DNA of 44,171 bases, taken from contig JAHCHO010000015.1 in the NCBI GenBank assembly GCA_026129685.1, forward strand, positions 1 to 44,171. Direction: 5' to 3'. The DNA is from Fimbriimonadaceae bacterium. Lineage in GTDB: Bacteria; Armatimonadota; Fimbriimonadia; Fimbriimonadales; Fimbriimonadaceae. The translations under genes and the position numbers were made by a program. Shown here piece after piece: positions 2,878 through 34,348 of the stretch. Positions within the stretch are counted from its first letter, which is position 1. Each line of letters begins with the position of its first letter. The notes below the pieces were generated by a model, which was not told the origin of the DNA, did no database searches, and saw only the letters and a program-made list of their open reading frames with translations.

Positions 2878-5800
2878 ATGAAATTCGTCCACCTGCACAA
2901 CCACACCGAGTACAGCCTCCTGGATGGCGCGAACCGCATCCCGGACATGGTCGCGCGTACCAAGGAACTCGGCATGGACGCCCTCGCGATCTCCGACCAC
3001 GGCGTTATGTTCGGGGTCATGGAGTTCTACTGGGAGTGCAAGAAGGCCGGGATCAAGCCCATCCTCGGTTGCGAGGCCTACATGGCGCCCCGAGGAATCG
3101 CCCGGCGCGGCGGCCGAGAGGACGGGCCGTTCCACCTTCTGCTCCTGGCCCGAGACTTGGAGGGCTACCGAAACCTATGCAAGTTGAGCGCGATCGCTGC
3201 TCTGGACGGCTTCTACGGCAAGCCCCGCATCGATTACGAGGTCCTCGAAAAGCACGCGGCCGGCCTCGTCGCGACCAGCACCTGCCTCGGTAGCGAGGTG
3301 GACCAAGCCCTTCTCGCCGGCAACTACGACCGCGCCCAGTACATCGCCGGCAAGTATGTCGAGATCTTTGGGCGCGAGCATTACTTCATCGAACTCCAGG
3401 ACCACGGCCTCGAAGAGCAGCGTCGGATTCGGGAGCCGCTGATCAGGATGGCGCGCGAACTCAAAGTGCCGCTGATCGCCACGAACGACGCGCACTACCT
3501 CTGCCGTGGCGACGCCGACCCCCACGACGTTCTCCTCTGCATCCAAATGGGCAAGCTCCTCGCCGACTCGAACCGCATGAAGTTCGAGACCCAGGAGTTC
3601 TACGTCAAGTCGCCGGAGGAGATGGCCGCCCTCTTCGCCGACGTCCCCGAAGCGATCGACAATACGAACCTCGTTGCCGAGTTGTGCGACGTGGACCTCG
3701 CCAAACAAACGGCGAATATGCCCGACCCCGATCTGCCGCCGGGTGAAACGCCCCGCTCCTATCTCCGCCGCGTCTCGATGGAGCGCCTCCCCCAACGTGT
3801 CCGAGGAGCCGACGAACGTGCCGTCGAACGGCTCGAGTTCGAACTGGGCGTCATCGAGAAGACGGGCTTCGAGTCCTACTTCCTCCTCGTGAAGCAGTTC
3901 ACCGACTTCGCGCGCGAGCGCGGCATCAACTTCGGACTTCGCGGTTCGGCTGCCGGTTCGCTCGTCTCGTACTGCTTAGGCATCAGCGATGTCGATCCCC
4001 TCCAGTACGACCTAACCTTTGAACGATTCCTCAACCCGGAACGCGTCTCCATGCCCGATATCGACATGGACTTCGAGGACGCCCGCCGGGACGAGATGAT
4101 CCAGTGGGTCACCGAGAAGTTCGGCAAGGAGCACGTCGCTCAGATCGTCACCTTCGGAACCCTCGGCGCCAAAGCCGCGATCAAGGACTGCGGCCGCGTC
4201 ATGGGATACACCCCGCAGGAGACCGACCGCCTCTGCAAGACCGTCCCCAACAACCCCAAGATCACCCTGAAGACCGCCTACGAAGAGAGCGCCGAGTTCC
4301 GGCAGATGGTGGAGGGAGACCCTCGCGTCAAGGTCCTTGTCGAGACCGCGCGGTCGGTCGAAGGCATCTCTCGCCACTGTGGGGTCCACGCCGCCGGAAT
4401 CGTCATCAGCAAAGAACCCCTTGTCGACTACATCCCTCTCTACCGTTCGAACGAAGGAACTCCCGTGACCGCCTTCGAGATGGGCATCCTTGAGAAGATC
4501 GGGCTCCTCAAGATGGATTTCCTAGGCCTCTCGAACCTGACCGTCATCTCCCGCGCCGTCTCCAATATCAGACAAACCCGGGGGATCGACCTCGACGTGC
4601 AGAGCCTTCCCCTCGACGACCAAAACGCCTACGATCTGCTGGCGCGAGCCGAGACCACGGGCGTGTTCCAGTTGGAGTCGGGCGGGATGAAGCGGTACGT
4701 ACGCGACCTCAAACCCCAGGATATCCGCGAACTGGCCGCGATGGTCGCCCTCTACCGGCCCGGCCCGATGGAGCACATTCCGACCTTCATCGACTCGAAG
4801 TTCGGTCGACGCAAAATCGAGTACCTCCACCCGCTGATGGAGCCGATTCTGGCCGAGACCTACGGGGTTATCGTCTATCAAGACCAGGTTCTCAAACTGG
4901 TGCAGGCGCTCGCCGGGTTCAGCCTCGGTAAGGCGGACGTGCTGCGCCGCGCCATGGGCAAGAAGGACGCCAAGGCTATGGACTCCATGAAGGTCGAGTT
5001 CATGGAAGGCGCCGCGACGAAGGGCGTCTCAGAAGACATTGCCGACGCCGTGTGGAAGCTCCTCGAACCCTTCGCCGGCTATGCCTTCAACAAAGCCCAC
5101 GCCGTCTGTTATTCCCTCCTGGCCTACCAAACCGCGTACCTGAAGGCGAACTACCCGGTCGAGTACATGGCCGCCATGCTCGCCTGCTTCCGAGAGAAGG
5201 AGGGCAAGGTGACGACCCTCATTGAGGAATGCCGCCGCATGAAGATCGCCGTCCTTCCCCCGGACGTGAACCGATCCGGTATGGACTTCACGATCGAGGG
5301 GCCCGCGATCCGCTTCGGCTTGGCCGCGATCAAGGGCGTAGGAGAAGGACTCGCGGAGGGGGTCCTGAAGGAGCGAGCGGGCCTATCGGGCAAGCCGGAC
5401 GCCCGCGCGTTCACCCACCTCTACGAGTTCTGCGAGCGAACTCGCCACCTCGGCATGAACAAGACCGCCCTTGAGGCCCTGATCCGGTCCGGGGCGTTCG
5501 ACTCGATCGAGCCGAACCGCAACAAGCTACTGGACGTCGCGGAAGCCGGTCTCGCCTTCGCGGACTCGATGAGCCGAAGTCGGCTCGGAGGACAGGAGTC
5601 GCTGTTCGACGACGCCGGTCCCGCGACCTCCGAAGTGCCCCATTACCCGATCCTGCCCGACCAACCTCCGCCCACGCGCGCACAGAACCTCGCGTGGGAG
5701 AAAGAGGTCATGGGCATCTACGTTTCCGACCACCCCCTGCGCGGCTACCGTCAGGTTCTGGAGAAAGCCTCCTCGCACACCTGTGCCTCGGTTCCCGAAA

Positions 5801-12850: not shown

Positions 12851-12858
<8 letters not shown>

Positions 12859-15433
12859 TTCGAACCCTCACTTCCAGTCGCTCGGTCGCGTTCGGCCCAA
12901 GCGACTGCTCCCACGCGAGCACGCCTTCCTCGGCGGCGAACTCCGTTCCGTTCACGACGAACTCCGCGCCCCAAAGGCCCTCGATGCGCACCCGGGCCGT
13001 GCCCCGAACCCGCGTTGGGTTGCTTAGGATCAGCTTAGCCCAACGCTTGCGCCGGTCCACCCGGACTTCGGCGATTGTCCCGAACGTTGTCTCAAAACGT
13101 ACCCCGGTCAGGCCGAGGACGACGCGTTGGCCGAGCCCGTCCCAAGGTCTCAAGGTGTAGGATTCGTCATCGGCGTCGTAGCTGCAGCCGTACGGCAACG
13201 CCTCGCCCGACTGGCCGCGCAACAGGTAGGAGGCGATGTGCCGCAGGTACAGGTACAGGGTCGCCCCCGTGTCGCCCGTGAAAGGCAGCATCCCCGCCAT
13301 CCGGCTCGACGGATCGGGACAGAAGGCCGCCGCGCTTTGTCCTTCTGGTCCGACAAGCGACCAAGCGGCGAGCATGCCCCCGTACGCCGCCCGCAGAACG
13401 TGCTTCGGCACGAACCGAATGTCGCGCGTGAAGAGGTTCAGCAACATCGCCGAATTGGCCACCGTCGGCGCCGTGATCCCAAGTTCGCCGTTGTCGATCA
13501 GCTTGGGCTGGGGGTTCACGCCCTCGAACAACGCCTTGTCGACGCCGAACCACCACCAACTCGGTCCCAACCCTTTGGCCGCGGTGGCGCAACGAACGAG
13601 CTTGTCCTGCGTGTTCCGGTTTTTCGTGAACACGGCCGCGTTGTACAGGTCCTCAAACGGCTCGCTGCTCCAGTCGCGCCCGTCCCGGAAGTCGTATTCC
13701 AGGATCGCCAGCCGCTCCAATCGCTGAACCAATGGCTGCACGAGCCCCTCGAGCCAAGGCGCCTCTTCGACGTAGTTCGAAAGCTGAAACAGGTCATGGA
13801 GGAGCGGAAACAGGGGCAAGCCGCTTCGCTCGAGGCGGTTGGGGTCGGCGTTGGCGAACATCGCCGTGATCGTTCGGGCGCACAGCGATAGCCAACTCTC
13901 GAAGGGCCACGAGAGCAAGCCCGTCGTGTGGGCGATTCGCGCCATCGACAAGTAGAACAGCGCCACACGGACGTACATCTCCGGGTCGCCGTAGTCCGTC
14001 GCCACCGACGTGGAACTCTGGAACTCGCAACCCACCGCGCAACTCCCCGGATTCTGCAGCGTTGCGTGGAGGAACTCCGTCACGTACTTCTCGAGCAACT
14101 CGATCTCGTCGCGCTTGGGGAACGCCGCGTTCTTCTCCGCCAGAAACAGCGCCTCCCCCAAACCGCAATACACCGCGTAGTCGCTCAAGAACCATTCCGG
14201 GTCGGTCAGCACGTCCCGGGGCGAATTGTTCGCCGACACGAACGACCCGTTCAGGGCGTGCCCGTCTTCTCGAAACACCTGGTGCGCCACCAGCCAACCG
14301 GCCCGCTTCTCGATCAGATCCCGGATCGGCTCCAAGAACAGAAGGTGCGTGTGCCCATCCCGCCCCTGCCCGTCGGAGAACGTGACTCGGAGCGAGCCCG
14401 GCGTTGTCGGACGCACGAAGCAGAAGCCCCCGTTCTCGTCCGTGTCGGTCTCGATCTCCGCCTCGCGATCCGCGCTGAAGTCGCGCACGATCGTGCCCGA
14501 GACCTCGACCGCGATCCCAACGTCCACCGGGGCGATCGCCCCCGGAAAGAGCCTCACCGAGGGCTGGTTCAGGAACTCGAGGTACTCCGGCAGGTCCTGA
14601 GCCGCTCGCTGGTCCACCGGAACGAAACGGGTCTGGAACACCCTCGTCTCGCCCGGTTCCAGAACGAGCGAGGAGTGCCCGTTGAACCACCGGAAGCGTC
14701 CCTCCCGGTCCACCGCCGCGCTGCTGTACAAGTACACGACCGGGATTCCCTCCCAAGCGTGCGGCGCGTTGACCGTCGCGGGCACCGACGACACCATCTC
14801 CCAAGCCGTGTTCTCGCCCGGATACACGAGCAAACCCGGTGGCTCTCCGCTGATGCGCTGCACGTGCACGTACGACGCGGATCCCCCGAGCGCCTTGTGA
14901 ATGTAATAACGGTTACGAAACACCTTGCGCGCGGCATCCGGACTGCCGCCCCCGTCCAGCAGGTTGTGGAAGGCCATCGGCAGCGCCAGTTCGCCAATCT
15001 CCAGGCTCTTGTTCGACCGGTTCTCAAGCGATAAGGCCCAAATCACCACCGGCATCGCGCCTGGTTGCTCGAAGTAGCGGCCCGTAGCCCGAATCTCCGG
15101 GAGAAGGGCGAAATCGTAAGTGAAGCCGGTCGAGGCCGCATCGTCCGATTCGATCGGGAAGGCGGTCTTGTTGCGATCGAAGACCCAGGGATCGTCCGGG
15201 TGGTTGCGCGCGCCAATGAGGACCGTGCCGGGGTAGTAGTCCTCCGCGTACTCTTCCCCGAATGGCATCGGTGGCAAGATGAACTGGAACTCCTCCGCCT
15301 CTTCGGGCAGTTCGGGATCGGTCACCCACAACTGCTGAATTCGTCCTCCTGGGCCGAACTCGAACGCGATGAGCGAAGCGGTGAGTTCTAGGCGATCCGA
15401 ATCGAATTCGTCCATGGGGATGGGTGCGGGCAC
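12851..15433 (-). CDS. large uncharacterised glycosidase-like protein (possibly DUF5695)
   Basis: 860 aa, no signal peptide. The first 300 residues look beta-rich. A transthyretin/carboxypeptidase-regulatory-like segment is near residues 310-360 (GTIVRDF to LRVTFSDG). Residues about 370-780 are helix- and tryptophan-rich, like an alpha/alpha-toroid (SWWWFGVDKALFEGVNPQPKL). A short beta domain ends the protein. I think this matches the DUF5695 family, a group of glycosidase-like proteins, but I cannot verify it. No catalytic residue can be named. GTG 15433 is used; ATG 15415 is an alternative six codons in. It is followed, with an 8-nt overlap, by the coiled-coil membrane gene. Confidence 0.75.
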
Positions 15434-15481: not shown

Positions 15482-16483
15482 CTACTCGGCGACCACCGCC
15501 TTCGCCTTGGGCCAGCGAAGCGAAGCCGCGATCGAGAGGGCGACCAACCCGACCACCACCCCCAGCGAGATCGCCGTCGGAACCTTGAAGCTCGCGTCGC
15601 CAACCACCTCTTTCATGTAGCCGGTCCAGAGGAGCTTTCCGCCCACCCACACCAGCACCACCGCCAACGCGTACTGCAGATAGTGGAACAGCCCGACGAG
15701 GCCGCCCACGGCGAAGAACAGCGCCCGCAGACCCAAAATGGCGAACACGTTCGACGTGTAAACGATGAAGGGATCGGGCGAGATGGCCAAAATCGCCGGA
15801 ATCGAGTCCACGGCGAAGACGAGATCGGTCGCCTCGACCAGAACCAGAACCACAAAGAGAGGCGTCGCCACCCATTTCCCCGTGCGTCGAACGAAGAAGC
15901 GGTCCCCATCGTACGATTCGGCGACCGGCACGAACCGCCTCACGAGCTTCAGCACCGGATTCTTCGCCGGGTCCATCTCGTGCTTCTTCGGCAACGCCAT
16001 CTTAAGGCCCGTCAGGACCAAGAAGGCGCCGAACACGAAAATCATCCACGCAAAGCGCTCGAGAAGCTCGATCCCCGCGAGGATCATGATCGCCCGCATC
16101 GCCAACGCGCCCAGAATGCCCCAGAAGAGAATCTTGTGCTGGTGCTTCGCCGGTACCGCGAAGTAGCTGAAGATCATCCAGAACACGAAGATGTTGTCGA
16201 CGCTCAGCGACTTCTCGATCAGGTAGCCCGTGACGTACTTCGCCGCGAACTCCCTCCCGACCGGGGCGCCGTGCTCACGGGCGTAGAACCAGTACACAAC
16301 GCCCGCAAACCCGAACCCGAGGGTCAACCACACGGCGCTCCAAGAGAGAGCCTCCTTCATCTCCACCGCGTGCGGCTTGCGATGGAAGACTCCAAGGTCA
16401 AGAGCCAACATCGCCAGGATGAGCAGACCGAATGCGAGCCACAACCATGCGGGCACGCCCGAACTGACAAGAACGGTATTCAT
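15482..16483 (-). CDS. TerC/Alx-family integral membrane transporter
   Basis: 333 aa with about nine hydrophobic helices. TerC signatures are LALDLGVF near residue 25, the acidic membrane motif KSLSVDNIFVFWMIF near 90, and EATDLVFAVDSIPAILAIS near 220, which contains the second conserved Asp pair. Family members (Alx, MntP-like function, YceF/YkoY) export Mn2+ or load it onto secreted enzymes. The Mn riboswitch at the head of this operon supports a manganese role directly. ATG 16483 is preceded by GGGAG about 10 nt upstream. It starts 16 nt after the zf-TFIIB gene, with which it is co-transcribed. Confidence 0.93.
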   Translation of the reverse strand: MNTVLVSSGVPAWLWLAFGLLILAMLALDLGVFHRKPHAVEMKEALSWSAVWLTLGFGFAGVVYWFYAREHGAPVGREFAAKYVTGYLIEKSLSVDNIFVFWMIFSYFAVPAKHQHKILFWGILGALAMRAIMILAGIELLERFAWMIFVFGAFLVLTGLKMALPKKHEMDPAKNPVLKLVRRFVPVAESYDGDRFFVRRTGKWVATPLFVVLVLVEATDLVFAVDSIPAILAISPDPFIVYTSNVFAILGLRALFFAVGGLVGLFHYLQYALAVVLVWVGGKLLWTGYMKEVVGDASFKVPTAISLGVVVGLVALSIAASLRWPKAKAVVAE

Positions 16484-16499: not shown

Positions 16500-16814
16500 T
16501 CAGTCGAGCACGTCGAACACGCGTTCGAGGAACGACTCCTTGCGCTTGGGCTTTCGGCTCCTCGTCGCCTCGTCACCGACCCGGTAAGGGGTGTCCGCTC
16601 GGTCGACCCGATCGAAGTAACCCCGTGGCAACAGGTCGTCTACCGGGCTCGCCCGACCACTCCGCGAGTCGCGGCCGTCCACGCTCGCCCGCTCGATCAG
16701 TTTGTCGAGTTCGCCCCGGTCGAGCCAGACGCCGCGGCACTCGGGGCAGTAGTCGATTTCGATTCCTTGCCGCTCTGCGATCTTGAGCGACACACGACAG
16801 GTAGGACAGTTCAT
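16500..16814 (-). CDS. zf-TFIIB domain protein, first gene of the Mn-riboswitch operon
   Basis: 104 aa. A single zinc ribbon is formed by C3-x2-C6 (CPTC) and C23-x2-C26 (CPEC), with the family motif CRGVWLDRGELDKL following. The second half is charged and probably disordered (SRKPKRKESF) and ends with a short helix (FLERVFDVLD). GGAG lies 8 nt before ATG 16814. It is the first gene after the riboswitch terminator and is followed 16 nt later by terC, so its expression should rise with Mn2+. The family has no established function; a metal-related or assembly role with TerC is inference from the operon. Confidence 0.85.
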   Translation of the reverse strand: MNCPTCRVSLKIAERQGIEIDYCPECRGVWLDRGELDKLIERASVDGRDSRSGRASPVDDLLPRGYFDRVDRADTPYRVGDEATRSRKPKRKESFLERVFDVLD

Positions 16815-16839
16815 CGTTTTGTCTCCGGAACAAAACGAA

Positions 16840-16875
16840 AAGACCTCCGCCGCCCACATGGGCGGTGGAGGTCTT
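16840..16875 (-). terminator. riboswitch expression-platform terminator
   Basis: A stem of about 16 bp (minus-strand 5' arm AAGACCTCCACCGCCC, 3' arm GGGCGGCGGAGGTCTT) with a 4-nt loop, followed by TTTTCGTTTT. This is a canonical intrinsic terminator, 25 nt before the zf-TFIIB start codon. Its 5' arm contains the bases that form the 3' side of aptamer helix P1, so the two structures exclude each other. Confidence 0.9.
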
Positions 16876-16956
16876 GCGGTTGATGATCGCGTCCGGCTCC
16901 GAAGGAGCGTATTGACGAACGCGATCCCTGTTCGAACAGGTGCTACTCCCCTCCAC
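16865..16956 (-). ncRNA. manganese riboswitch (yybP-ykoY) aptamer
   Basis: On the minus strand, P1 is GTGGAGG (16956-16950) pairing with CCTCCAC (16871-16865). The diagnostic junction GGGGAGTAGC follows, then a P2-like hairpin CCTGTTCGAACAGG. P3 GATCGCGT/ACGCGATC encloses the second conserved segment CGTCAATAC, a GCTCC-TTCG-GGAGC hairpin and CGG. These elements match the yybP-ykoY Mn2+ aptamer (RF00080), as I recall from the Lactococcus and E. coli examples. Binding of Mn2+ should stabilise P1, take CCTCCAC away from the terminator and turn the operon on. The downstream terC agrees with known members. Confidence 0.93.
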
Positions 16957-16979
16957 GGGGACTATTCGCTTGTCAGGCT

Positions 16980-17009
16980 ATTATACGCCGCTCCCGCCAT
17001 ATTCGTCAC
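16980..17009 (-). promoter_or_regulatory. promoter of the riboswitch-zf-TFIIB-terC operon
   Basis: Minus strand: -35 GTGACG (17009-17004), 18-nt spacer, perfect -10 TATAAT (16985-16980). The predicted start near 16973 leaves about 17 nt before aptamer helix P1 and a leader of about 160 nt. Confidence 0.8.
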
Positions 17010-34236: not shown

Positions 34237-34332
34237 CGCCGGGAACTGCGCGGCGTGTGGTCGGTGAACCCCGCCAGGGCCGGAAGGCAGCAACGGTAAA
34301 CCGTTCCAGCGTGCGACGCATCCTTCCCGGCG
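34237..34332 (+). ncRNA. ffs: signal recognition particle RNA (4.5S, bacterial small type)
   Basis: A 96-nt hairpin RNA. The terminal helix is CGCCGGGAA (34237-34245) paired with TTCCCGGCG (34324-34332). The apical domain carries the Ffh-binding asymmetric loop and tetraloop: CCAGGGCCGGAAGGCAGCAAC, with the GGAA loop and AGCA signature. It pairs with Ffh to target membrane proteins co-translationally. It sits directly ahead of dnaX, the arrangement seen in many bacteria. Confidence 0.96.
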
Positions 34333-34348
34333 TTCCTCTGGAGTCCCC

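Follow-up and report, generated by a model that had tools for sequence, protein, structure and literature searches.

The leader of a zf-TFIIB–terC operon in the window (the whole stretch of 44,171 nucleotides of Fimbriimonadaceae DNA that was analysed) is very probably a Mn2+-ON transcriptional riboswitch of the yybP-ykoY class that lacks helix P4, with both the ligand and the direction of the response being features that we infer. By all comparative tests applied to its sequence, the element is a real member of this class. The most interesting aspect, judged from gene order in the genomes compared, appears to be that Mn2+ riboswitches are repeatedly associated with genes for small zinc-ribbon proteins and for membrane zinc proteases. 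An earlier note on this DNA had described a TATAAT element, both yybP-ykoY signatures, the closing helix P1 and a terminator reusing CCTCCAC, and this description and its coordinates proved right (Table 1); the absence of P4 is a feature beyond it. Its reading of a transcriptional yybP-ykoY switch ahead of zf-TFIIB–terC was likewise upheld, through covariation, a conserved overlap of P1 with the terminator and recognition of the Escherichia coli mntP and alx leaders. The GTGACG and TATAAT hexamers make up a sigma-70-like pair (10 of 12 matches, 18-nt spacer), with a predicted transcription start about 15 nt ahead of P1, and -10-like hexamers matching in at least five of six positions lie upstream of 39 of 93 aptamer sites, compared with 14% in shuffles.

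Table 1. Features of the riboswitch leader and the genes behind it (positions in the window)
Feature	Position	Strand	Basis
-35-like hexamer GTGACG	17004-17009	-	consensus match only
-10 element TATAAT	16980-16985	-	sequence
yybP-ykoY-type (Mn2+) aptamer, 95 nt, P1-P2-P3 three-way junction without P4	16863-16957	-	covariance models, covariation
P1 5' strand GTGGAGG	16950-16956	-	fold and covariation
L1 signature GGGGAGTAGC	16942-16951	-	sequence
P2 hairpin	16927-16940	-	fold and covariation
P3, with L3 signature inside facing CCGG	16885-16926	-	fold and covariation
L3 signature CGTCAATACG	16908-16917	-	sequence
P1 3' strand CCTCCAC, common to terminator 5' arm	16865-16871	-	fold
Intrinsic terminator hairpin AAGACCTCCaCCGCCC-ATGT-GGGCGGcGGAGGTCTT	16840-16875	-	fold
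RBS-like GGAG ahead of zf-TFIIB	16823-16826	-	sequence inspection
zf-TFIIB zinc-ribbon protein, 104 aa, relative of Thermus ZifS (PDB 8yoz)	16500-16814	-	Pfam, fold match
terC, TerC/Alx family membrane protein, 333 aa, 16 nt past zf-TFIIB stop	15482-16483	-	NCBIfam/Pfam

The window element carries both the L1 (GGGGAGUAG) and the L3 (CGUCAxxACG) consensus of the yybP-ykoY class, and the adenosine at 16913 in L3 is, by analogy, presumably a Mn2+ ligand. The pattern GGGGAGTAGC-N12..42-CGTCANNACG was present in 48 of the 113 genomes of the bacterium's order, while the reversed pattern gave one match, and by this comparison the signature in the order is not a product of chance. A covariance model built on a plain MAFFT alignment (R1) recovered P1 alone and was replaced. 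A second model (R2), for which the window sequence and its fold were the sole input, recovered all 11 aptamers beside zf-TFIIB relatives, with E values from 5e-14 to 5e-5, and returned 54 matches in 56 sources (the window plus 55 signature-bearing loci of the order), 53 of them besides the window itself. When these 54 matches were aligned, 91.8% of cells paired, versus at most 42.3% in slid-partner controls, and 23 of 30 pairs changed on both sides (5 of 7 in P1, 5 of 5 in P2 and 13 of 16 in P3), amounting to 323 such cells versus 90 after shuffling; these numbers are flattered by an alignment fitted to the window structure and by the relatedness of the sequences, though the margin is still large. 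One pattern match without a model match (locus L111, genome G041) was dropped as an aptamer and is still counted among the 14 "other" sites given below.

The 54 sequences of the order were used for a refined model (R3), whose training set did not include E. coli mntP or alx. R3 recognised both of these leaders (E = 1.4e-4 for mntP and 0.004 for alx) and found matches in 91 of the 291 genomes of the phylum. It also gave 96 matches when run on 100 loci of other bacteria, although these loci had been picked by the same signature, which by itself contributes to their score. The models, the covariation and the recognition of mntP and alx together make yybP-ykoY membership well supported by sequence and structure.

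The Rfam model of the class, RF00080, gave a different result. The earlier note had proposed that a covariance-model score below threshold would refute its reading, and the score was indeed below threshold: the window element did not reach the gathering score of 45 bits, and no match to it was returned at the gathering level, at E values up to 10, or genome-wide. The RF00080 alignment shows, however, that this model is without P1, ends on the P4 hairpin and depends on P4, and even the E. coli mntP leader (locus L119, 962-1058) scores 41.6 bits against the model's own cut-off of 45. The proposed refutation is therefore unsound, and the silence of RF00080 is not diagnostic. Across the 291 genomes of the phylum no match exceeded the cut-off and an E value of 0.001 was reached in seven, so that, for a riboswitch class among the most widespread, the Rfam model overlooks virtually every member in this phylum (0 genomes versus 91 of 291 with R3). 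Rfam was dropped as a membership test owing to its insensitivity for this class. Among other Rfam models, SSRC10 (RF02617, Streptococcus sRNA 10) aligns at 16835-16944 on the minus strand with 24.8 bits (cut-off 56), and the alignment runs along both the aptamer and the terminator, L3 signature included; from this resemblance, it is possible that SSRC10, too, is a Mn riboswitch leader ending in a terminator. The weak matches of Rfam microRNA and sRNA models in the window were set aside as chance or indirect.

The window aptamer and its relatives in the order depart from the solved structures in one respect, as the P4 helix and the four-way junction were not encountered in either. The Lactococcus lactis yybP aptamer has the same L1 and L3 signatures, P1, P2 and P3 helices and GCAAGACC 3' strand as the window element, but it contains extra sequence at the P4 position and forms a four-way junction, whereas the window and its order are three-way. 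The E. coli mntP and alx leaders, although recognised by a model of the window's own order, likewise have additional sequence or a hairpin here, and each precedes a single exporter gene without zf-TFIIB or htpX. In the solved form, P3 is stacked on P4 in the four-way junction (PMC11087558). Among the 54 aptamers of the order, 52 fold as P2 and P3 alone and a third hairpin occurs in none, which makes the group a three-way-junction variant of the yybP-ykoY class; a short third hairpin may be present in some members that are more distant within the phylum. We consider P4 to be common in the class but not defining for it. With P4 missing, affinity or selectivity could differ, and it might be argued that the loss of P4 from a conserved fold has changed the ligand itself, to a divalent ion other than Mn2+ or to several ions together. 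The absence of P4 at the order's sites would be in keeping with such a change, as would targets with no obvious Mn link, including an outer-membrane efflux protein and genes that by eye resemble a universal-stress protein and a carbonic anhydrase. However, the core formed by L1 and L3 has not changed, and terC, P-type ATPases and htpX dominate the targets; we regard a changed ligand as very unlikely.

A transcriptional switch is consistent with how the leader is predicted to fold. The aptamer by itself folds with P1 closed over P2 and P3 (-42.1 kcal/mol, z -4.4) and the terminator by itself is also stable (-30.8 kcal/mol, z -7.7), whereas in the full leader (-64.5 kcal/mol, z -6.2) the terminator forms and P1 is broken, with CCTCCAC shifting in the predicted fold from P1 to the terminator stem once the terminator sequence is included. 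The terminator is followed by TTTCGTTTTGTT, and the U-rich tract extends to about 16829. A terminator scanner did not report the window terminator stem, presumably because of an A.C mismatch in it. The reuse of the P1 3' strand by the terminator, claimed earlier for the window, was borne out across the aptamer sites, as this strand forms the 5' arm of a hairpin with a T-rich tract at 79 of 90 sites versus 2.3% when the downstream sequence was shuffled.

The L. lactis yybP leader, in which P1 likewise competes with an intrinsic terminator, has been shown experimentally to be ON with Mn2+ (PMC11087558). The conserved overlap of P1 and terminator argues for a transcriptional ON switch of the same kind, and the Mn2+-ON direction in the window leader would follow from this common anatomy. 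Termination is not universal in the yybP-ykoY class, as a Vibrio study reports read coverage without a drop at one such riboswitch (PMC13274385). For alx-type leaders, pH, RNA polymerase pausing or NusA has been proposed as the main cue, and it could be supposed that the same applies here and that Mn2+ plays a secondary part. Such a reading might draw on the membership of the window terC in the Alx subfamily and on the finding that NusA acts on the switch helix in L. lactis (PMC11087558), but what is conserved here is the mutual exclusion of P1 and terminator, unlike the alx arrangement, and we regard this reading as very unlikely.

Under the Mn2+-ON reading, the downstream repeat would capture the P1 3' strand at low Mn2+, and the terminator would form and stop transcription ahead of zf-TFIIB. 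At high Mn2+ the metal would dock L1 and L3 together, P1 would close and the terminator would be blocked, allowing transcription of zf-TFIIB and terC, after which TerC would export Mn2+ or pass it to exported proteins.

The identity and order of the controlled genes agree with the earlier account, in which a 104-aa zf-TFIIB protein and not terC comes first. The zf-TFIIB protein matches Zn_ribbon_TFIIB (PF13453) with 73.4 bits (cut-off 22), with the metal-binding cysteines C3, C6, C23 and C26 invariant, and terC matches TerC/Alx (TIGR03718) with 412.9 bits (cut-off 246.4). That account had also suggested searching genomes for zf-TFIIB genes between the aptamer and terC, and such arrangements were found repeatedly. 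Among 95 fetched aptamer sites in the phylum, counted as sites and not as independent events, the aptamer is followed by terC alone at 22, zf-TFIIB then terC at 20, htpX alone at 19, htpX, zf-TFIIB and terC at 10, htpX then a P-type ATPase at 3, a P-type ATPase at 3, zf-TFIIB alone at 2, zf-TFIIB then an ATPase at 1, terC then zf-TFIIB at 1, and other genes at 14. The genes downstream are mostly Mn-related (terC and P-type ATPases), and htpX, which encodes a membrane zinc protease, is a target as often as the zf-TFIIB–terC pairing. The M48 peptidases of the window genome are located elsewhere. The pairing of the switch with zf-TFIIB, which had been offered as undescribed, remains so in the literature searched, but it recurs and is not peculiar to this genome. 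No paper was found there that joins yybP-ykoY with zf-TFIIB or zf-TFIIB with TerC, subscription titles being mostly outside the search, and within that literature the novelty of the pairing holds.

The zf-TFIIB gene may nevertheless be a passenger behind a real riboswitch, its role being one of housekeeping or regulation that has nothing to do with Mn. Genes for zf-TFIIB proteins occur without an aptamer elsewhere in these genomes (R3 searches of zf-TFIIB loci lacking the aptamer signature were all negative), and in two congeners (G001 and G002) terC lies directly behind the aptamer, so zf-TFIIB is not obligatory. On the other hand, zf-TFIIB is present in 34 of the 95 aptamer operons, which is far beyond chance placement given at most about four such genes per genome, and Thermus and at least three Nitrospirae records also have it behind Mn-type aptamers; we therefore hold the passenger role to be rather unlikely. 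A role for zf-TFIIB as an Mn-stress partner of TerC and HtpX is our best guess, which we infer tentatively: the protein would most likely stand beside TerC and, in relatives, also HtpX in a membrane Mn-overload response.

Cases beyond the phylum are among the matches listed from a scan of named genomes. In at least three of the Nitrospirae records listed, the gene behind the aptamer codes for another zf-TFIIB subtype and a P-type ATPase gene lies further downstream; a further record, Nitrospirae MnB_6 (locus L257), has tandem Mn-type aptamers at 3440-3480 and 4567-4600, the first followed by htpX and the second by a P-type ATPase; its contig name suggests a manganese enrichment. Also among the matches listed are Geobacter and Geomonas (aptamer, HtpX, then TerC), Selenomonas (aptamer, a TerC-like gene, then htpX) and Thermus, where a Zn_peptidase_2 gene and then zf-TFIIB lie behind the aptamer. 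The T. tenuipuniceus protein in this position is the orthologue of ZifS, and Thermus thermophilus ZifS (TTHA0897, PDB 8yoz) is the best match to the window zf-TFIIB in both sequence and fold. The two proteins have in common a zinc-ribbon core and a C-terminal tail of basic residues plus FDLFD, but ZifS has a shorter linker and terC is absent from the Thermus stretch seen. In the predicted structure of the 104-aa protein (mean pLDDT 70) only the zinc ribbon is confident; the tail is uncertain, and nothing was inferred from its fold for that reason. In the literature searched, no paper on the function of ZifS was found.

The TerC proteins MeeF and MeeY of Bacillus subtilis belong to the same protein family as the window TerC, and HtpX co-purifies with them; in the part of that study covered here, neither a zf-TFIIB partner nor a shared htpX operon was seen (PMC10550928). 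This study is also the only one in the literature searched in which yybP-ykoY and htpX occur together (PMC10550928). The shared regulation described here ties HtpX to manganese homeostasis, in line with the co-purification reported in B. subtilis (PMC10550928). It is conceivable, and put forward with the same reserve as the role of zf-TFIIB itself, that ZifS-like zf-TFIIB proteins together with HtpX or Zn_peptidase_2 and TerC or P-type ATPases make up a Mn-overload module under Mn2+ riboswitches in several phyla. If so, the module would protect membrane or secreted proteins under conditions where other metals are displaced by Mn2+, and the zinc-ribbon protein would assist the protease or TerC as a partner or metal guard. 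The association with Mn2+ riboswitches offers a functional lead, manganese stress, for the zf-TFIIB/ZifS proteins, which are little studied.

Several further observations concern the neighbouring genes and the outlying sites. At loci L027 and L030, htpX–zf-TFIIB–terC and htpX–zf-TFIIB clusters have no detectable aptamer, and such a gene cluster can thus persist without the switch. Divergent aptamers lie ahead of an outer membrane efflux protein gene in three genomes of one genus (L065, identified by Pfam, and L068 and L189, which look alike) and ahead of a sodium/calcium exchanger-like gene at two loci of one genus (L178, Pfam 27.9 bits, and L179). In the window, a DUF5695 gene (12851-15433, minus strand) starts 48 nt past the terC stop, and the gap holds a GC-rich hairpin; the gene may or may not be part of the terC operon. 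The Rfam scan of the window also identified a bacterial small SRP RNA at 34237-34335 on the plus strand (62.3 bits).
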